Origin: Hyaloraphidium curvatum
Lineage: Eukaryota > Monoblepharomycota > Hyaloraphidiomycetes > Hyaloraphidiales > Hyaloraphidiaceae
Assembly: GCA_025558095.1 (NCBI GenBank)
Contig: JAIVFI010000012.1
Span: forward strand, 558,001 to 622,000
Length of the DNA: 64,000 bases
Reading direction: 5' to 3'
In this document: positions 1 to 44,649 of the stretch, piece after piece
How the letters are laid out: every line of letters starts with the position of its first letter
Position numbering within the stretch: position 1 is the first letter of the stretch
The notes under the pieces: model-generated
Database searches by the model: none
Seen by the model: the letters and a program-made list of their open reading frames with translations, nothing else
What the model was told of the DNA's origin: nothing
Position numbers and translations under genes: made by a program

Positions 1-1
1 T

Positions 2-373
2 CGGGTCATGGAGGTGATCGTGGACTCGGTCGACGATTTCAAGCCGATCGACGGCCCCTGCGTGCAGGCAAAGAAACTAACTGATCGCATTCTCGACGTC
101 GACTCCTCCGCCAAAGCCGGCGTCGGAAAAGCCCTCGATTCGCTTCCGGGCGCGGTTCTCGCCGCGCAGCTGCTCCGCGAGCCCACGGACAAGGACAAGC
201 TTGCGATCCCGTTCTTCGGCGAGGTCCTCGGTGGCGCCTTCCTTGCGGCCATGGAAGCTCTGGATCCGCAACCGCCATCCGAGCCGTACACGCGCGTGGT
301 CCGGGGGTGCGCTGATCTCTGCACCCGGCTCGGCCGTGCGGGGCAGGCGTCGCGGTTCGCGGCCAAGATCTGA
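2..373 (+). CDS. 3' end of an unknown protein gene (cut by the window edge)
   Basis: The frame is open from the first base to a TGA at 371-373, so this is the C-terminal part (about 120 residues) of a protein that starts outside the window. It contains an alanine/leucine-rich, probably helical stretch (around LDSLPGAVLAAQLL) and ends in GQASRFAAKI. No motif or family is recognisable. GC-rich third positions suit a real coding exon. An ATG sits at position 8, but nothing marks it as the true start. Confidence 0.4.
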   Translation, partial: RVMEVIVDSVDDFKPIDGPCVQAKKLTDRILDVDSSAKAGVGKALDSLPGAVLAAQLLREPTDKDKLAIPFFGEVLGGAFLAAMEALDPQPPSEPYTRVVRGCADLCTRLGRAGQASRFAAKI

Positions 374-26209: not shown

Positions 26210-29200
26210 TCAGACTGCGTAACCCATGTCGCGGAGCTCCTTCTGCACCTTGTCCCAGCCCTTTGCGATCTTCTCGTCCAGCTCCCAACCCCGCCTCTCT
26301 CGCATCCTCTCCAGTTCCCTCAACACGACGGGTCCAAAGAACGTGAGCGCGAGCCCGTGCTGCTGCTCGTCCATCAATGGGGGCAGTCCCGCCCACAGCC
26401 TGTCGAGCACGGCGGGGAGCGCAGCGAGCCCGAGCTCGAGATCGATCGGCTCCCGGCCGCCCGAGGCGCGCCGCACGAGCTCGCATGCCGAGGCTGCCAA
26501 ATCACGAAAGTCCTTGCGATCGTCGATCCTGACGCCGATGATCTCCATCGCGGCCGCCAGAGCCTTGATGGCGCCGAGAGCCTCCCTGTTGGAGGGTGCC
26601 GAGGGACCTTTGTTCGGGCCCGGGCCCTCTGGAACGGCGACCTCCGAGTTCAGCTCATCCCGCCGCGCCTTGCCGAGTAATGAAACCGCCTGGGCGAGCT
26701 GCCCGTCCGTCAACACCTGAAGAACCAGCCCGCCCTCCTTCTGCAGCCACTCGATTGTGGGGTGATGGGGGTCCTGGATCCACACAACAGCGGCGTTCCT
26801 GCAACGCGTCATAAGGACAAGCCACGTCGTGAAGCCATCGCGACACCGATCCCGTTCGGCTTCGGCCAAATCTTCCCCGTTGTCCAGCTTGCGGATCAGC
26901 TTCGCGTCCGTGCCCAAAAAGGGCTGGTCCAGCACGCACAGCGTGTCAAATTCCAGGCCGCGGCAGTCTTCCAGCCCCAGCACTAGCAGCGGCTTGATCT
27001 CGGGGTCGTCCACCAGGACCGGATCTGGGGCTCCGGGCCCGTGGAGCAGGAAGAAGTTTTGCTGGCTGAGCTTGAGCAGCTTCTTGGCCGCTTCGGCGTC
27101 CGGGCACACCAGCACGGGCGGTGACTCCCACAGCGACGAGCGGACGACCTTGTCCACCGAGAAATCGTCGAACTCGGCCTTGAAGTGGCGCTTAAGCCAC
27201 CGCTGGAGCACCGAGTCTACGACTTTCAACACGCCGATCGGGCACCGGAAGTTGATGCTCAGCACAATGCTGCTGTGCTGCAGCGCAACTCCGGCCACGT
27301 CGCAGGCCTCGACGACAGCGGGACGGACCCCTCTCCGCCTAGCCGCCGTTTCTTTGCCGACGCTTTGCTTGGAATCAAGTCCAATGACGACGGATTCCGG
27401 GTGGCCGCTCGACAGGGCCAGAATTTTAAGCTGCACCGGCGTGATGGACTGCGCCTCATCGATCAGAAGGGGGCCGAAGTGCTTGCGCAGGGCCTCCATG
27501 TGCGCGGGATCGCCGAGCCCGGTGCGGTAGCCTTCCCAGATCCCCTTGAGGTGCTCCCAGAGATCCTCCTCGTCCTTCAGCCCCTCGGTCTTCTTCCAAT
27601 GCCGGTACCAATTGACTTCACCGGCGTCAAGCCTGTTTGCCCACATGCGTTGTAGCTTCGCGGGCGTCGCTTTTCGGTCCCTCCGCCGGGCCGCCTTCTC
27701 GAACTCGCACTGCGTGACCGGTTTTCGCCATTCCGAAGGCCACAAGAGGTCAATGCGGTCCTGCACCGTCACGGCATCGACGTGGTAGGTACGGCTGATC
27801 TTCTCCCGCAGCCGCGGTGTAGGAACAATGATCCTTGCGCCCGGGGTTGCACGAGCGATTTCTGACAGCACTGGTAGACATTCCGGTGCGTCAATTGGGT
27901 ACACATGCGGTATCGCGAAGCTTGTGCTCACCCGTTGTTTTGCCGTTGCCCGCGGACCCCTTGAGGAAAAGTGCCACCTGCTGCGATCTCGCGAGCTTGA
28001 TCGCCTGCGGCGGTCAAAACTGTTAGGAAGGATAATTCCGTTGACTGCGGGTGTCCAGCAATGCAGACCTCCAACTCCTGTCGAGTGAGAACCGGCCGGC
28101 TCCGCCCAGTTCCGAGATCGGTCTCGATCAGCATGTCGAGGTTCCCCAGGAACCTCCGCGGCAAGAAGAACCCGTCTCCAAGTTCCGGATTTGCAGAGGC
28201 TTCGCGCTTGAAAGCAAGCGCAGTGTCCCGCATGGCCACCGCCAGCAGACGGTCGTGGCGGAGCCCGTCGGCGTCCAGTTCCGCGGCAGTCGCGTCGCGG
28301 TCGTCCGACGCGAGGAAGTTGGGGCCCAAGCGGTCGATCGCATCACGGATTTCTGCTGCCCGATCGATGACGCGGTTGAAGCCCTGGATGGACGGGGAGA
28401 ATAAGCGCCAGTTCACGCGGATCTGGTCCGCGCAACCGACCTTGTGATCCAGCTTGATGGAAGTGATGAGGAACACCCCAGGTTCCAGCTCCACGTAGAA
28501 GACCCGTTCCTGCTTATTCAGCCGTCCCTCGAACGTTCGGTCGCGGACCTTCTTGCGGAATTGCCTGTCAACGACGTCAGTGATCACGGTTGAGAAAGGA
28601 GGCAATGCTAGACATACAGCTTCTGACGCCCGGAGAAGATGTCCAAGACCTTGCTCTTGATGTTCAGGCTCTCGATCAGCCTGTGTACCTGAGCCCGCAC
28701 AAGGATTCGACCCCGCGGGAGCGACAATGCAGCCTCTTCGTCGTCATCCGGAAGAGATTCTAATCCGCTGGCCGCAACACCGGGAATTGGCGTATCATCT
28801 GGCAGCTTCCAGTCCGGAAAGAGTGCCTTGAGCAGGTATTCTGGAGGCATCTCCCCCGTGATACTCTGATCCAGGGCCGCGAGCCACTCCTCCAGACAAG
28901 AAACGAATTGCAACTCGGTGGAACGCGATGCTTCTTCCGCCGAAAGGGGTCCCAGAACCGAAACAGGGGCCAGAGGGGCGACCGCCTTCACCGTCTCCCA
29001 AATGTCGACCCGGAGAACGACCCGAGCGCGACCTGCAAGGGGACGGTCTGCATGCCTGGGCGGCCTGCGCTGGCTCGATAGGGGACGCGTCCACCGAAAC
29101 ATCCAATCCATATCCTCGGCCGAAGGGCTGCTGCCAAGCGGGATCGGGCCCGTGAGACTCGCCGTCCGGTGTTGCGCCGCTGCGCCCGCTTTTCGCCGCT

Positions 29201-31690
29201 GTCGACCGAGAAGGCAAAGACATGCACCTCAAGTTCAGCAATCGGCTCGATCGGAACGATCTGGAATGACCTCGAAGCACCCTTGCCGGACACTTCCAGC
29301 TTGAGGCGCAGGTCCTTCCATTCCGCTTCAGGCAGATTCGGAGAGACCGTCGAATGCCCGCCGCGAGCGGCAAAAAGAACGTCGAACTCGACCCCGCGCT
29401 CATCGATCTTGACGGGGTCGACATCCGGCCACGGGGCCGCCCTGTACTCGAGCCACCGCTTGCGGTCGCGCCAGCGAGGCCACCGGCGCTCCAAAAAGGC
29501 GACCACGAGACGAGCCCTTGGATGCGAGACAAGTCGGGCCAGGCGCTGCTCCTTGAGCCTCCGACGGATCCGAGCAAGGTAGCGGGAAAAGACGGCGGCC
29601 CGATGGATCCTGAACGCCATCGCCGAGACCCTCGCGAACTCGTCCTTTCCCAGGCCCGCGAACTTTGCCCACGCCTGCTGCCGGCGGATGTCCTCCATCA
29701 GGCGGGTCACGTAGCCGTCGTCCGCGCTGGCGGGCATGTGGAGCTGCTCCCTGATCTGCCCGACCGTGCCCTCGAGCCGCGCCCGCATGTGGATGCGGTA
29801 GCACGAGTCTGCGATTTTCCCAGCCTCCGTCGCCAGTTCTTCGGAAGCTTTCCGGCCCAATGCGCCGTCAGCTCCCCCAGAAGCTTCGCAGAGAAGCGCG
29901 ACGTGCTGGGCAACGCGCAGGGCATGTTTTGTAGCCGATTCCAGCTCACTCAGCCTGTCCTTTGCACGGCCCTTTGCTGCGGATTCCGACAGGAGCGCGT
30001 CTGGTTTCTCGGCGAGCATGACCTCGACCAGCGACAGCACGCCGGAGACGGCCCTGCAGGCCTCGAGCAGCTCGACCTCCGGGACGCGGTCCAACGAGCC
30101 GTACGCCTTCTCCAACACCTGAACGTAGAGATCCGCCGTGCCGAGCAGGTCGCGGAGGAGCGCGCGCTCCGATGCGAGCACGCGGCGGGCTCCCTTGGTT
30201 TCGGCCAGGCCGGCCAGGTGCCCGCAGAGGGAGAAGCACACGGCCTGGAGCATGCCCGAAGCGAGGAGATTCTCGGCGTGCTCCACGGTGAGGCGGGCCG
30301 CGTCGACGATCTGGGAGCCGGAGAACCAGGTCCTTTTGGGCACCGCGCCGAGGAGCTCCACGAGCTTGCCGCCCAGGGCGGCGCCCGCGAACTCCTTGAG
30401 CAACGGGAGCCCCTGCCTGGCGAACCGCTCTTTGGCATCGTGGTAGAACGCTTGGTCCTCGTCCGTTGGAAACAGGTGTGGCTCCGCACGTGTGGTCTCA
30501 CCGCGGAAAGGGACCGAGGGAAAGCAGTCCTTCAGCTCCCTGGATCTGGGCAACTGCAGCAACGAGGCAAAAGGGTGCGCACGCGTCGTCAGAACCTTGT
30601 CAAAGTTACCCAGTTCCTCTCTGAAAGCACGCAGCCGCGATATCCTCGTCATCTGAGCCTTCTCCGTCTCGGTGGCAACGGGATCGTCGGTATCGACCGC
30701 GCTCCGGGTCGGCTTCTCCTGTCCGGCGGTCGCGGATGCCTGCCACGCTTCCTTGGTCGACTCGAGCTTCTTCCGCATCTCCGTTGCCTTGGCAGTTGAA
30801 TCCGTGAGCTGCGTCTCCGCTCTCGCTTTCGCCTCCGTCGCCCTGGCTACGGCATCCTCGGCCTTCTTCAGCCTCTCCGAGCTCTTGGTCGCACCGTTGA
30901 CCTTTGTATCCGTCCGTTTGCCGCCCGGATGATCCGGTGAAGGAGAACCGGCGCCGTCGGGCTTCGCCTCCGACGGCTTCCCGGCTTCGTCCGCATCCAG
31001 CTTCTTCAGCGCTTCCAGCTTCGCCGCCGCGTCCGCCAGCTTAGCCGTGGCCCTCTCCAGCTGCTGCTTGTGCTTGGCGACCGCCTCGTCCGCCCCGGCG
31101 ACGGTCACCCTCTTCTGCAGCTCCTCCTCCTTTTTGTTCCACGCCGTCTTCGCGGCCTTTTCGGCACCCTTCTTCGTTCGCTCCGCGTCGGTCTTGGCCT
31201 CCGCCTTCCGCATCCTGACCGCCTCCTCTCTGCCCTTCCTCTCCCGGTCGAGCCGGGGATCGATCGCATCCAAGGCCGCGGAGGCGTCCCCCAGCACAGC
31301 GACGTAGGCATCCGAAGCGTTCCGCGGGTCCAGATCCTGCCACGCGCACGTCGTGGCCCTGATCTCCGCTTCGGTTTTCTCCCTCTTCTTGTCGACCTTG
31401 GGCCTTTTGCGCGTCGGTTCGGGCCAGAGCGCCCCGGCCGCCCCTGAAACCGCCGACGCGACGACCTTCGCCACGCCCCAGACGCCCCCGGCGACCCGCT
31501 GCACGAACGACGGCCCGTCCGCTGCGCCGTCTCCCGGCTGGGTGGCGCCGGGGGCCGGCTCGTCCTCCGCCGCGGGAACCCGCCGAGCGTCCCCCGAGGG
31601 CCCGCCGCCGGGCTCGGACGCCCCCTGCTTGGGCTTGTGCGGCCGTCGCCGGCGGGGTGGCCGCGTCGGACGCGGAGACGCGGCGTCCAT
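26210..31690 (-). CDS. giant UvrD/Rep-like SF1 helicase with long novel N-terminal region
   Basis: One multi-exon gene of roughly 1,750 residues from about ATG 31690 (MDAASPRPTRPPRRRR). The N-terminus is basic and disordered, followed by a charged coiled coil (31.4-30.7 kb) and a long helical region. An intron with donor GTCTCA near 29.1 kb, then a consensus GTATGT intron (53 nt, about 28.6 kb), lead to QFRKKVRDRTFEGRL and FYVELEPGVFLITSIKLDHK. The C-terminal third is a complete SF1A helicase: LKGSAGNGKTT (Walker A), LLIDEAQS (motif II), VIGLDSKQ (III), LSINFRCP (IV), CRGLEFDTL (V), LVLMTRCRNAAVVW (VI). The stop is at 26210. Helicase motifs are seen directly. What the first ~1,100 residues do is unknown; DNA/RNA processing or defence roles are speculation. 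Confidence 0.7.
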
Positions 31691-32071
31691 GGCCGGAAAC
31701 GGGGGGGTCGCACTTGCGGCGCGCGCACGCGTCATCACTCGGGCTGTCGATCGCCCCCGCGGTGCCTGTCGGACAGAACACGTCCCTCGACTCCCATTCG
31801 GCCATTCGTCTCCATTCTTTATTGGTCGACTTTGGCCACGATCGGGCACGATTGCCCCGATTCCATCGGTTAGAGGCGTTCCCATACCAGGTCGCCCAAG
31901 AATGGGCCCATCCACACAATCGAGGTCACAACAAATGCCAGCAGATGCGATAGAGCACTCTTGGCTTCGACGAGGTGCCACGGCTGGGGGAGTCAGCTAT
32001 ATCTCGAACGTGGTGACGCGGGACGCCCCGTGATCGCGGCCCGGGAGACCCCTCCACCAACAACGGCCGCC
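31691..32071. other. divergent intergenic region, helicase / OTU genes
   Basis: Both starts flank this spacer. In-frame ATG codons exist upstream of each chosen start (for example 31735 on the minus strand), so 5' ends may extend into it. A TATA-like site lies near the OTU gene. Confidence 0.4.
31995..32004 (+). promoter_or_regulatory. TATA-like element upstream of OTU gene
   Basis: GCTATATCTC lies about 70 bp upstream of ATG 32072, an AT-rich island in GC-rich DNA. A core-promoter role is inferred. Confidence 0.3.
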
Positions 32072-33064
32072 ATGCCGGGCAAGCCGCGGCGGCGGCAGCG
32101 CGAGCCCTCCGCCGACTCGTCCGCGCTCGCGGCGCAGCTCGCCACCCTCGGACTGGAGCGGCGCGACGTTGCGGGCGACGGCAACTGCCTCTTCCGCGCG
32201 CTGTCCGACCAGCTGCACGGCCACGACGGGCTGCACGCGCGGCTGCGCGCCGACACCGTGCGGCACATGCGCGACCACGCGGGCGACTACCGCGCGTTCA
32301 TCGACCCCGACGTCGACGCCGGGCTCGGCAGGAAGGGCCGCCGGAAACACACCGGAGACCCCGCGGAGAGCGGCTTCGCGCTGTACCTCGAGAACATGGC
32401 CCGCGACGGCGTGTATGCGGGCAACCTGGAGCTCGTGGCGTTCGCGAAGGTGGCCGGGAGGGACGTGGTGGTGCACCAGCTCGGCCAGGCGCCGTGGGCG
32501 ATCCGGTGCGAGGGACCGAAGACGGGGCCGGCGCTGCACATCGTCTACCGCGACTGGGAGCACTACGAGTCCGTGAGGAGCATCGCCGGGCACGCGGGGA
32601 AGGAGGGCGGGGTGGAGTGGCGGGACGTGGCGGATCCCGCGGCCCGGAGGGCGAGCGCCGAGCGGGAGGGACGGACAAAGTGGGGCCAGCCGGTGGCATG
32701 GGGCACCGACGACCCCGATGCCGAGGCGGAGGAGGTCGACGTGTCGGCGCTCATGTCCTCGTACGGCGAGGATTCGCCGTTGGAGGAGGACGTGCCGGCG
32801 CGGAGGGATTCGCTGGAGCACTCGCGCGGCCTGCCGCCGCTCCCGCCGCCGGAGTCGGCGCCGCCCGCGGGGAAGGAGAAGCGGCCGTCGAAGCAGCAGC
32901 TGCGCGAGGCCAAGAAGAGGGCGCAGAAGGAGGCGGCGTTGGAGAAGAAGCGGGGGCGGAGCTCCACGAACGCTTCGGACGCGTCGGCGTTTGCCCCCAC
33001 GGGGAGGGGCGACGCGGATGGGATCGAGGAGCTCGTGGGCGGGATGAAGGTCGTCTGCATATGA
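32072..33064 (+). CDS. OTU-domain deubiquitinase (OTUD3-like)
   Basis: Single exon of about 330 codons. The OTU cysteine protease domain occupies roughly residues 15-170. DVAGDGNCLFRALSDQLHG carries the catalytic Asp and Cys, an Asn-Leu-Glu-Leu stretch (YAGNLELVAFAKV) precedes VVVHQLG, and HIVYRDWEHYESV carries the catalytic His. Family enzymes cleave ubiquitin chains. After the domain there is a Lys/Glu/Pro-rich tail with AKKRAQKEAALEKK, probably a helix or nuclear signal, ending GGMKVVCI. ATG 32072 is chosen because it places a short basic leader before the domain; an upstream in-frame start would be non-ATG. Confidence 0.85.
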   Translation: MPGKPRRRQREPSADSSALAAQLATLGLERRDVAGDGNCLFRALSDQLHGHDGLHARLRADTVRHMRDHAGDYRAFIDPDVDAGLGRKGRRKHTGDPAESGFALYLENMARDGVYAGNLELVAFAKVAGRDVVVHQLGQAPWAIRCEGPKTGPALHIVYRDWEHYESVRSIAGHAGKEGGVEWRDVADPAARRASAEREGRTKWGQPVAWGTDDPDAEAEEVDVSALMSSYGEDSPLEEDVPARRDSLEHSRGLPPLPPPESAPPAGKEKRPSKQQLREAKKRAQKEAALEKKRGRSSTNASDASAFAPTGRGDADGIEELVGGMKVVCI

Positions 33065-35151: not shown

Positions 35152-36498
35152 CTACTCGTCCACGGCATCTTTGCCGAGCGGCGGCTCGGGAAGGCATCCG
35201 AGCCTCACCTTCCCGTCCGGCCCGCGGATGCGCACAACCTCCAGGTAGTGCGGCGGCCTCAGCGGCCCGATGACCCGCCTGTTGCTGTACGGCGCCGGCC
35301 CCGCATAGGTCACGATCGCCCAGTACGTGTCCGGGTTGGGCCCGGGGTCCGAGTAGGCCGGCCACGCCGACTCGTAGTGCGAGTCGCTGAGCTTGCCGTC
35401 CTCGCCCCGCTCGAGCACGCGGAGCGTGTCCATGCTGCCGATGTCCTCCACGCCGATGAGGAGGGAGAGGTCCTGCGGCGCCGTGCCGTTCTCGCGGCCC
35501 TCGACGCGCTGCCCGTCCTCGCCCACGAGCTCCGCAGAAAGCATGGTGTCCTCGTCCCGGTGGAACACCGTCATGCCCCGCGAAAACCCCTCGTTCGACT
35601 CGTGGATCATCTTGAGCACGAACGAGAGCTCCGAGGCGGGCGGCATCGGGGCCGTCAGGGGGGGTACCTGGATGCTCTCGCACTTTTCGACGAGCCCGCG
35701 TTGCACCATCTCGGCGCCGATGCGCTCAAACTCCCTGGCGTGTCCGGGGCGGTCCTCGTAGATGCGCAGCTCTTTGGCCGAGGGGAATGTGAGGGCCAAT
35801 GCCTCCAGGAATGTCTTTTTGAACATCAGGGTGCCCATGAAACGCTGGACGCGCTCCCCCGCCTTGACTTCGTGCGTATACGTGAGCTTCTCCGGGAACT
35901 TTTTGGCCACCGCCACGGGCTCGAAGGGCAGGCTCCATGACCCGGTCGCGGGGTCGTTCGGCGGCTTCAACCCGAGGACATCAAACTCGAAGTTCCTCGA
36001 CTCGCAGAGCCTGCGCACGAGCTTGTTGAACTTGAGGTGCCCCCGGCCGGTCAGGAGCACCGTGAGGGCCTTGGGGTCGGCCATCGATTCGTAGACCTTG
36101 CCCGCCGTCTCCGCCGACCACCTCGATTCGTCCCAGACCCAGCCGCCATCGCGATCCCAGCCTTCGTCCCGCATCCCGACGAGCGATCTCGGGTCGGTCC
36201 ACCATCCGATGGCCGGGACGTATGAGCCCGTCAGGACGCGGAGGATGGTGCCGTCCCAGAGGTCCCGCGACGGCAGCGGGCTCCCGAATATGGTGTTGTC
36301 GAAGTCGAAGACGTTGATCTTTGAGATTTCGGCCGCGGCGCTCGCGAGCTGCGCCGCAGAGCCGTTGGCGAGGGCCGAAGAGTGCGTGGCTGCGACAGCC
36401 GACAGGGGCGCGCCGGAGAGGCCCGCGGGGCGCGCGGGGGGGAGCGCCGCGCCGTGCGACATTGCAAATGCTGCCGTGAGCTGCTGGACACGCTTCAT
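35152..36498 (-). CDS. Swiss-army-knife RNA-repair-like HAD protein (HAD_SAK)
   Basis: Single exon from ATG 36498 (MKRVQQLTAAFAMSHGAA). The HAD domain begins KINVFDFDNTIFGSPLPSRD with the nucleophile DxD motif. It continues with GWWTDPRSL, ESRWSAETAGKVYESMADP, LTVLLTGRGHLKFNKLVRRL, FEFDVLGLKP, KKTFLEALALTFP and LRIYEDRPGHAREFE. That order matches the fungal HAD_SAK_1 family, proposed from domain context to be RNA end-repair phosphatases. The C-terminal half (YLEVVRIRGPDGKVRLGC region) is conserved in fungal members. A second ATG 36 bases downstream (36462) is an alternative. The 3' end is only 46 bp from the convergent BAG-like gene. Confidence 0.8.
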   Translation of the reverse strand: MKRVQQLTAAFAMSHGAALPPARPAGLSGAPLSAVAATHSSALANGSAAQLASAAAEISKINVFDFDNTIFGSPLPSRDLWDGTILRVLTGSYVPAIGWWTDPRSLVGMRDEGWDRDGGWVWDESRWSAETAGKVYESMADPKALTVLLTGRGHLKFNKLVRRLCESRNFEFDVLGLKPPNDPATGSWSLPFEPVAVAKKFPEKLTYTHEVKAGERVQRFMGTLMFKKTFLEALALTFPSAKELRIYEDRPGHAREFERIGAEMVQRGLVEKCESIQVPPLTAPMPPASELSFVLKMIHESNEGFSRGMTVFHRDEDTMLSAELVGEDGQRVEGRENGTAPQDLSLLIGVEDIGSMDTLRVLERGEDGKLSDSHYESAWPAYSDPGPNPDTYWAIVTYAGPAPYSNRRVIGPLRPPHYLEVVRIRGPDGKVRLGCLPEPPLGKDAVDE

Positions 36499-36698
36499 AG
36501 GGGCCCCAGGCTCCCCTTCGCAGGTGTGCTGACGGAGGATCGGATTTCTTCCCGGAACTACCGCCAACCGGCCGGGGCATCACTTCGCTCGTCACGATCG
36601 GCTCAAAAGTGCTTCCAAAACCGCGGCTTCATACTTGCAACTGATTACATACTCAATAAGAAAGCATATGGATCCGGTCGAACGATTTCGACCGCGCG

Positions 36699-42603: not shown

Positions 42604-44058
42604 TCACTTGATCCCGAGATTCGCCATCCCCGGCTCGAGCCCCTCCTTCATCCTCGCCATCTCCTTGCCCAGGTCCCGCACCTGCCTCCTCAGCGTCCTG
42701 ATTTCGGCATCCCGTTCGGATATCTCGGCGCGGTGCCGCTCGATCTCGGCGGCGGGGAGCGCATCCACGGGCGTTGGTGCCTTGCGGGGCTTTTCCCGCT
42801 GCCCCTTGAGGGCCTCGTCGCGCTCCTTGACGGCGGCGTTGCGTTCCTTTGCGGCGGCGTCGCGATCGCGGACGGCCGATTCCCGCTCCCGCACCGCCGC
42901 GTCACGATCTCGCTCCGCGGCGGCCCGATCTCGCACCGCCACCTCCCGCTCCCGTTTCGCGGCGTCCCGCTCGCGCACTGCGGCGTCCCGCTCGCGCACG
43001 GCGGCATCCCGTTCGTGTGCCGCGGCGGCGTCCCGCTCCCGCCGGACCGAGTCGAGCTCCCGCACCGCGGCCTCCCGCTCCCGCACGGCCGAAGCCAGCT
43101 GCCCCGCCAGCCGATCGCGCTCCGCCTCGGCGACCCTCCTTTCCGCGACCAGCGCGTCGCGCTCCTTGGCGAGGAGCTCCCTGTCCCTGTGCCCTGCGTC
43201 CGATCCGCGGGCGAGGCGGTTCCTCAGCTCGTCGCACTTGGCCCGCAGCGCCGCGGCGTCCCTCTTGGCGTCCTCCGCGGCCAACAGCGCGGCGTCCCTC
43301 TCGCGCTCGGCGGCGGCGGCCCTCGCGAGCGCGTTGCCGGCGTCCGTGCCCCGCTGGGCCTGCTTGAGCAGGCCATTGTAGGCCACGCGGAGCTGCTCGT
43401 ACTGGGCCTCGAGCTCCTCGTGGTCCCGGAGCAGGTCGTTGTGGTTCCTTTGAAACACCCTGAATTGCTGGGTTTCCGTGCCCTCCTGCAGCATGTGGTC
43501 GATCGCCGCGCGGATCGAGGACGTCGGGGCCAGGAAGTCCGCCGGCGCCTTGCCCTGCTTGTTCAGGATCGCCGGATCGATGCCCGGGGCACGCAGCAGC
43601 ACGTCTGCGACATCCTCCCGCCCGTTCTGGCACGCCGCGTGCAAAGCCGTATCGCCCGTGTGCTTGTTCTTCAGGTTCAGGTCGACGCCGCGCTCGCTGC
43701 ACACGGCCCTGACGACGTCGACGAAGCCGGCGCGGCACGCGATCATGAGTCCCGTGTCGTCGTGCTTGTCGCGGCGGTTCGCGTCCGCGCCGGCCTTGAC
43801 GAGCAGCAGCGCGCAGTCAGGCGAGCCGGCGCCGCAAGCCGAGATGAACGCCGTGGCGCCGCCCACATCGGCGGCGTCGATGTCGCACAGCCCTTTGCGC
43901 GAGAGCAGCAGCCGCAGCACGCCGGCCTGGCGGTGGCGCGCCGCCGCGAGGAGCGCGGGAGCCGCGTCGCGCCGCGCCGCCGGCGTGTCGAGCAGCCGCC
44001 GCACGGCGTCCTCGCGGCCCGCAGCGCACGCCGCAACGAGTCCGCTGGGGTCCGCCAT
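42604..44058 (-). CDS. ankyrin-repeat protein with long heptad coiled coil
   Basis: Single exon of about 484 codons from ATG 44058 to TGA at 42604. The N-terminal 190 residues hold about five ankyrin repeats (GLVAACAAGREDAVRRLLD, ATAFISACGAGSPDCALLL, TGLMIACRAGFVDVVRAV, GDTALHAACQNGREDVADVL). The rest is coiled coil. A central stretch repeats a seven-residue unit of the RERDAAV type, followed by IERHRAEISERDAEIRTLRR and ending GMANLGIK. Ankyrin repeats bind proteins, and the coil suggests self-association or a scaffold. No enzymatic domain is present. Confidence 0.75.
   Translation of the reverse strand: MADPSGLVAACAAGREDAVRRLLDTPAARRDAAPALLAAARHRQAGVLRLLLSRKGLCDIDAADVGGATAFISACGAGSPDCALLLVKAGADANRRDKHDDTGLMIACRAGFVDVVRAVCSERGVDLNLKNKHTGDTALHAACQNGREDVADVLLRAPGIDPAILNKQGKAPADFLAPTSSIRAAIDHMLQEGTETQQFRVFQRNHNDLLRDHEELEAQYEQLRVAYNGLLKQAQRGTDAGNALARAAAAERERDAALLAAEDAKRDAAALRAKCDELRNRLARGSDAGHRDRELLAKERDALVAERRVAEAERDRLAGQLASAVREREAAVRELDSVRRERDAAAAHERDAAVRERDAAVRERDAAKREREVAVRDRAAAERDRDAAVRERESAVRDRDAAAKERNAAVKERDEALKGQREKPRKAPTPVDALPAAEIERHRAEISERDAEIRTLRRQVRDLGKEMARMKEGLEPGMANLGIK
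42826..43056 (-). repeat. 21-bp coding repeats (seven-residue RERDAAV-type units)
   Basis: About ten imperfect 21-bp units in the ankyrin/coiled-coil gene encode R-[ED]-R-[DE]-[AS]-A-[VA] variants. The unit equals one coiled-coil heptad, so copy-number change lengthens the coil without breaking frame. Confidence 0.7.
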
Positions 44059-44649
44059 GCAATGGAGGCGCAATATGCAGTCGCCTGCCTCCTGTGTCCG
44101 TGACTGACTGATTTCCCCGGCCTGAGTTCTGGGAGGCGACGCCGGCGATGGACCCACTCTTTTCCTCCGCCCAACGTGACGCTGTCGGCCGACGATGTCT
44201 TGGAATCTTCATTCAGCGATTCACATCACCGGATTCCAGCAGTCAAGCACTGGATGGATGATGGCGACGGAAGGAAGTAAGCAACTTGCGATGCTCAAGG
44301 CCCGCATTCACAAGACAACCATGAGAGATTCATCAAAAACAGGAGCCTCGATGACTGATGCCTTGCCTGGTTCTCTTTGCGCCGGATTTCTGGCCCGGAT
44401 TTCGGAGTTTTGGCCACATCAAATGCCGAGAATCGATATACGGCCGCAGTTCTCAGTTCTCCATCGGTGGAGCGGGGATAGCTCCCGGACCTAGAATGGC
44501 AAGGAACACTTCGACCTGATCTCAATCCGGCTGCTGAAGTATTCCCTACCCATGAGAGAACCGTCCGGGGGACCGCAAAGAGTTGGGCCTACATTTTTCC
44601 GACCATCACGTCGGTCTGCCTGCCCATCCCCGAGCTCAGGCCACCTACG
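44059..44649. other. divergent intergenic region
   Basis: About 590 bp between the starts of the ankyrin gene (-) and the Nma111 gene (+), locally AT-richer than coding DNA. No gene, repeat or clear motif is recognisable. It presumably holds two promoters. Confidence 0.4.

Follow-up and report, generated by a model that had tools for sequence, protein, structure and literature searches.

A large predicted SF1A helicase of Hyaloraphidium curvatum joins a conserved motor block to a variable N-terminal half

Introduction

The question raised by the locus described here is whether a very large helicase gene of Hyaloraphidium curvatum (Monoblepharomycota) reflects a gap in the annotation of a known family or a different kind of protein. 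The gene lies on the minus strand of a 64,000-nucleotide stretch of contig JAIVFI010000012.1 (positions 558,001 to 622,000, referred to as the window). An earlier note, made from sequence alone, had described a superfamily 1A (SF1A) helicase with an unrecognised N-terminal half and proposed it as a candidate for an undescribed system. Our results suggest a nucleic-acid-directed SF1A helicase with a protein-interaction N-terminal half and a conserved module in front of the motor, belonging to a family in which the C-terminal block is constant and the N-terminal half varies, a reading to which we give an even chance of being right. The observation is real and more than an annotation gap, as what is found is apparently a new architecture on a known motor; at this stage it does not amount to evidence for a defence system. 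A narrow literature search found no description of a UvrD-type helicase combined with MATH/TRAF, TPR and CCCH-like elements. In our judgement, genome defence in early-diverging fungi is little known.

Results

All six SF1A motifs quoted in the earlier note were confirmed on the minus strand, in the last third of the protein (Table 1). Walker A, a Walker B of the DE-Q form and motifs III to VI follow one another in order, and the C-terminal half of the window protein scores 27.3 bits with the Pfam model UvrD-helicase (PF00580), for which the cut-off is 23. Judged from its sequence, the gene product is a UvrD/Rep-type SF1A helicase whose motifs are intact and whose motor is predicted to be ATP-driven. 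Among the relatives P0001 to P0006 only P0003 exceeds the PF00580 cut-off (34.1 bits). When the family profile was compared with 20 single sequences, E. coli UvrD came first (E 8.8e-6), followed by L161, an SF1 fragment from the same genome (9.1e-5), and two bacterial helicases (1.8e-4 and 2.5e-4); L158, another helicase of the same genome, gave 3e-4, and the matches to HelD (0.0045) and four other bacterial helicases (0.0018-0.027) were weak. A Foldseek search with a predicted model of P0006 placed UvrD, Rep and PcrA chains at the top of the list, with nothing under E 0.001; the model is poor (mean predicted local distance difference test score, pLDDT, 44.6) and its use was confined to helicase affinity and, with caution, to the succession of elements in the conserved module. 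Among PDB sequences, phmmer with the window helicase found no match, the family profile A1 found one AAA ATPase at E 0.15 only, and profile A4 gave two matches (0.41 and 3.2).

Alignment of the family members indicates that the block formed by the module, the helicase and the C-terminal tail is constant, and that the N-terminal half is variable and even exchanged between two subtypes. Among P0003, L026 and P0005 the module is 61-64% and the helicase 57-64% identical, as against 22-32% for the helical region, 24-28% for the first MATH domain and 22-35% for the second. The window copy fell out of register in the global alignment from the helical part to the CCCH-like pattern, and only its identities in the module, helicase and tail were used. 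Subtype A (P0003, P0004 and P0005) has the order helical region, IQ-like helices, MATH, MATH, TPR, CCCH-like finger, module, helicase and C-terminal tail, and the window copy looks like a shortened member of it that lacks the second MATH domain, the TPR and the CCCH-like pattern. Subtype B (L027 and P0006) carries the same module and helicase behind a different N-terminal half. In L027 this half has a MYND-like end (PF01753, E 0.26, below cut-off) and contains the segment AGGSVL...SGDVDIFLYGL, which by eye we take to resemble a nucleotidyltransferase signature; the GGS...DVDIFLYGL segment gave no useful PDB match and only weak Pfam matches. The divergence of the N-terminal halves and the unrelated-looking half of subtype B would fit a sensor under changing pressure, and relaxed constraint would fit them equally.

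The conserved module of about 90 residues has the consensus KKV....FEGR.....R.F...L...L.T...L.HKG in both subtypes and is separated from Walker A by about 100 residues. In the P0006 model it is predicted as helix, helix, four strands and helix, in a region where pLDDT is under 50. This order recalls RelE/ParE, and a RelE/ParE-like nature of the module is proposed as a hypothesis only. Pfam found no match to the module in four members other than BESS at E 0.7 (window module), and a comparison by HHalign with RelE, for which 14 of 36 loci supplied 13 distinct sequences, returned a probability of 0.3%. There are bacterial UvrD-type helicases, often of about 700 residues, that have a small conserved N-terminal domain ending in WVDHHDEAY; a motif search located them at 90 loci (L066-L155). 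Walker A lies in the same frame as this domain in 85 of the 90, the frames of the other five being just 88-238 residues long; the three that were scanned with Pfam all matched UvrD-helicase, and two of them also showed Gp49 or ParE-like matches below cut-off. The helicase profiles of the family and of the bacterial proteins match each other with 93% probability (E 2.5e-7). A weak third alignment places the module and the bacterial N-terminal domain in the expected register. The HHalign score of the module against 83 distinct bacterial N-terminal domains was 17.08, and 4 of 150 column shuffles did as well; segments of these bacterial proteins lying fully outside the domain scored up to 17.1, and one that partly overlapped it 17.7. 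HMMER comparisons of the two in both directions stayed above the inclusion threshold, giving no accepted match. Taken together, the sequence and profile similarity of the module to the RelE/ParE superfamily is weak and close to chance.

These observations bear on an alternative explanation, that the protein is a genome-defence or antiviral effector in which the variable N-terminal halves sense or dock while the helicase feeds a RelE-like module that cuts RNA, much as ZNFX1, TRANK1 or Schlafen proteins might act. A defence role for the family is plausible on indirect grounds, namely the divergence and exchange of the N-terminal half, the narrow distribution in our searches and the weakly matching defence-helicase profiles of relatives; we consider this particular explanation unlikely. 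It would account for the different N-terminal halves on a constant C-terminal block, the restricted distribution in the searches made, the element order of the P0006 module and the existence of bacterial helicases with an N-terminal domain weakly like Gp49/ParE. P0006 also matches the PADLOC defence helicases Nhi (6.5e-9), AbiO (1.3e-8) and GajB (1.8e-5); however, the Nhi and AbiO matches lie around the P-loop (residues 485-608), the GajB match spans residues 626-887 in the middle of the motor, and in PADLOC, applied to relatives only, P0003 reaches just 1.2e-4 (GajB) and P0005 5.5e-5 (Nhi). The cut-off of the Schlafen model SLFN-g3_helicase (PF09848) is exceeded by P0006 alone among P0001 to P0006 (26.5 bits against 24), but the model finds no match in the H. 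curvatum genome and is missing from the Pfam matches that the C-terminal half of the window protein gives up to E 1. The HHalign probability for RelE, the shuffled and outside-window scores and the low pLDDT of the module all argue against this explanation.

The earlier note described the N-terminal half as unrecognised. Pfam indeed gave nothing for the 900-residue open reading frame of the window copy, whether at E 1 or at E 5, and the long extension resembles none of the known housekeeping families. The half is nevertheless not wholly unrecognisable, because in relatives two MATH/TRAF folds, a TPR region and a CCCH-like finger can be made out. A profile of P0003, P0004 and P0005 searched against the 648 open reading frames of the window matched its N-terminal half and nothing else (E 3.5e-10), covering the helical region and reaching into the first beta-sandwich, and BLASTP with this half found P0005 (3e-7), P0004 (6e-5) and P0003 (0.013). 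The possibility that the window N-terminal half is unique was accordingly rejected: on its own it finds only itself in the genome (E 0.01), yet the profile of its relatives matches it. In P0005 a predicted model and fold search revealed the two MATH/TRAF folds, and the first strands of such a domain were recognised in the window copy by a two-sequence search (i-Evalue 1.6e-4). The beta-rich segment that the earlier note placed just before Walker A is two things, MATH-like strands that lie far upstream, at about 29.46-28.96 kb, and the separate module. The TPR assignment, which concerns the paralogs and not the window copy, draws on TPR_9 in P0004 (1.8e-5, below cut-off) and on profile A2, whose 64 PDB matches were mostly TPR proteins. 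IQ is slightly under cut-off in P0004 and P0005. The CCCH-like pattern is present in P0003, P0004 and P0005, where even in P0003 it is below the cut-off of the Pfam CCCH models, and absent from the C-terminal part of the window copy. Elsewhere in the genome, a MATH_2 match at L165 (C9:241001-251000) was set aside, since the apparent open frame of 22,913 residues that holds it is an artefact of an adjacent block of N (5,000 of 10,000 bases).

The earlier note has both ends of the gene right: it starts with the ATG at 31690, and its stop codon ends at 26210. An in-frame ATG near 31735 may be an alternative upstream start. From ATG 31690 a frame of about 830 codons can be read; the first frame closes at 28991. 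Codon usage favours the first frame as far as about 29190 and, past about 29040, a different one. In the interval no frame is clearly coding, and of the many weak GT-AG pairs that would fit, none is prominent. Four introns are clean, and the second falls between HK and GF of the module, as it does in L025 and L026, where L027 reads straight across. The closing of the first frame and the frame change could be taken to mean that two genes adjoin here, with their border near 28.6-29 kb, but we regard this as highly improbable because P0003, P0004 and P0005 each carry the N-terminal half and the helicase in one protein, and the single-gene reading of the earlier note is retained.

In the H. curvatum genome (31.9 Mb in 55 contigs) the family comprises four full-looking copies and one 3' fragment. 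The C-terminal half of the window protein matches copies on C11 (50%) and C9 (49%), a copy at C12:555.9-558.0 kb, about 26 kb from the window gene on the opposite strand, and a 3' fragment on C14 (56%); searches of the genome with P0006 and P0003 found no additional copy. Our splice model of L025 is identical, residue for residue, to the annotated H. curvatum protein DFJ74DRAFT_705017 (1,847 residues, C11), and L026 agrees with DFJ74DRAFT_532297 (C9) to residue 1,736, after which the C-terminal tails differ. Searches of 5.8 billion proteins recovered, besides two annotated paralogs, P0001, P0002, P0005 and P0006. Relatives made up 2 of 7,994 candidates scored in one search, 1 of 861 in another and, counting the query itself, 4 of 7,979 in a third. 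These searches need shared five-residue words and the 7,994 and 7,979 candidates are those that share most words, so distant relatives may escape. Two peptide patterns gave 32 matches and no relatives in viral_contigs, and 52 matches and no relatives in the prokaryotic genome_contigs. As far as the searches reach, the family appears small and lineage-restricted, confined to Hyaloraphidium and a few other contigs. Next to the C14 fragment (L028, C14:203500-213400), about 6 kb away, is a frame that by eye resembles a Ty3-type integrase with a chromodomain.

The distribution is relevant to a further alternative, a lineage-specific factor of RNA surveillance or DNA maintenance with no part in conflict, which we find rather doubtful. 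The affinity to UvrD and the CCCH-like finger and TPR of the paralogs are what such a factor might be expected to have. Against it, there is no sign of the wide conservation that a housekeeping helicase should show, with no relative found by the peptide patterns in genome_contigs and six proteins found by the protein searches, within their limited sensitivity.

The coordinates of the gene, its parts and its neighbours are collected in Table 1. The OTU-like gene stands head to head with the helicase gene, the probable ATG of the former, near 32072, being about 380 bases away from that of the latter. The gene that strongly matches PF10307 (the HAD domain found in 'Swiss Army Knife' RNA repair proteins) is about 3.5 kb from the helicase gene. 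In the neighbourhood of the helicase gene we recognised no defence signal.

Table 1. Coordinates of the helicase gene, its predicted parts and neighbouring genes in the window
Feature	Position	Strand	Basis or remark
Whole helicase gene	26210..31690	minus	ATG 31690 to stop; about 1,730 residues
Residues 1 to about 380, a basic disordered tail plus a charged coiled coil	30553..31690	minus	sequence reading; outside the significant N-half profile match
Helical region through first MATH strands, homologous to N-half of P0003/P0004/P0005	29282..30457	minus	hmmsearch E 3.5e-10
MATH/TRAF-like domain	28960..29461	minus	first strands 29461-29279 by profile; second half, in another frame, by eye
Frame change: intron without good donor, or frameshift	29040..29190	minus	codon usage
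Conserved module (KKV...FEGR...R.F...HKGF)	28333..28715	minus	alignment; window 46-49% identical to P0003, L026, P0005
Intron 1 (GTATGT...CAG)	28565..28617	minus	clean
Intron 2	28384..28440	minus	clean; same position in L025 and L026, absent from L027
Intron 3	28005..28068	minus	clean; no counterpart seen in L025, L026, L027
Intron 4, immediately after Walker A	27871..27931	minus	clean; same position in L025 and L026, absent from L027
SF1A helicase core, from Walker A to motif VI	26740..28004	minus	motifs, Pfam, alignment
Walker A, GSAGNGKTT	27959-27933	minus	motif read in sequence
LLIDEAQS	27469-27446	minus	motif read in sequence
VIGLDSKQ	27388-27365	minus	motif read in sequence
LSINFRCP	27262-27239	minus	motif read in sequence
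CRGLEFDTL	26965-26939	minus	motif read in sequence
LMTRCRNAAVVW	26815-26780	minus	motif read in sequence
C-terminal tail, family-conserved	26210..26739	minus	30-37% identity to P0003, L026, P0005
3' end of subtype-B paralog L027, gene begins left of window	1..370	plus	last exon ends at about base 370
OTU-like cysteine protease	31874-33061	plus	45.9 bits, cut-off 23.3
PF10307 protein	35155-36579	minus	143.5 bits
Ankyrin-repeat protein	42607-44208	minus	Ank_2 81.3 bits

Discussion

The arrangement found here suggests how such a protein might work. The N-terminal half, helical and MATH/TRAF-like, would be a protein-interaction platform that docks onto partners, an oligomeric scaffold or a nucleoprotein target; the ATP-driven motor would then act or move on RNA or DNA and feed the nucleic acid to the module or through it. 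The module may bind or process it, and may cut RNA. The motor motifs, the homology, the domain folds on a relative and the contrast in conservation between the C-terminal block and the N-terminal half are observed, whereas recruitment, the type of nucleic acid and any role in silencing or defence are what we infer, and the CCCH-like finger of the paralogs hints at RNA.

Several observations weigh against our reading of the gene as a nucleic-acid-directed helicase with a protein-interaction N-terminal half and a constant C-terminal block. The family profile gives a poor match to Rep (0.0043), which is also an SF1A helicase. The MATH fold was assigned on a relative, whose predicted model (four sequences) has a mean pLDDT of 65, and not on the window copy, in which only the first strands are detected and the second half was not found by profile (0.68). 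The preference for RNA comes from a CCCH-like finger that is lacking in the window copy and is under the Pfam cut-offs. Over the short CCCH stretch the relatives share 45-48% identity, and fast divergence is therefore not a property of the whole N-terminal half. Finally, the frame change falls in the MATH region, and the window copy could therefore be decaying.

This last point raises the alternative that the window copy is a decaying paralog that has lost the second MATH domain, the TPR and the CCCH-like finger and has suffered a frameshift in the first MATH domain, a possibility to which we give little weight. It would explain the missing modules and the stretch from 29190 to 29040 with neither a clearly coding frame nor a good splice donor, and the C14 copy is likewise only a 3' fragment. 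However, the other four introns are clean, the helicase frame is open throughout and, with identity to the paralogs near 50%, none of the motifs is damaged; this last point implies long selection on the C-terminal block.

A bolder form of the defence explanation is that of an undescribed conflict system in an early-diverging fungus, with a constant effector made of a RelE-like ribonuclease module and an SF1A helicase, and with exchangeable, fast-evolving sensor halves: MATH/TRAF, TPR and CCCH in one subtype, a MYND-like finger and a nucleotidyltransferase-like segment in the other. The family would then be a eukaryotic counterpart of the bacterial helicases with a RelE-like N-terminal domain. 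We think this quite unlikely. The constant motor with a variable front half resembles sensor-effector families, and should the module turn out to be a nuclease, this would connect the large helicases of fungi with bacterial helicases that have a toxin-like N-terminal domain and provide a testable entry into genome defence of early-diverging fungi.

Returning to our preferred reading, of a nucleic-acid-directed helicase with an interaction platform, the family can be placed among known systems. With UvrD, Rep and PcrA it shares motifs I-VI, a Pfam UvrD-helicase score over the cut-off and the first place of UvrD in the profile comparison and, from a poor model, of the UvrD-type chains in Foldseek; it differs from them in its large MATH-bearing N-terminal half and its special module of 90 residues. 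The bacterial WVDHHDEAY helicases of about 700 residues have the same order, a small domain followed by a UvrD-type helicase, and their helicase profiles match that of the family, whereas MATH, TPR and CCCH are absent from the Pfam matches of the three that were scanned; in single-sequence comparison the family helicase is no closer to them than to UvrD. In contrast to the MATH/TRAF proteins SPOP, USP7 and TRAF2/6, to which identity is about 13%, the MATH domain of the family is fused to a helicase, and a literature search for this combination turned up nothing, although such evidence is weak. TRANK1, ZNFX1 and Schlafen are, like the family described here, large SF1 helicase proteins with accessory modules; Schlafen differs in that its SLFN-g3 model is passed by a single relative, P0006, and by no protein of H. 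curvatum.

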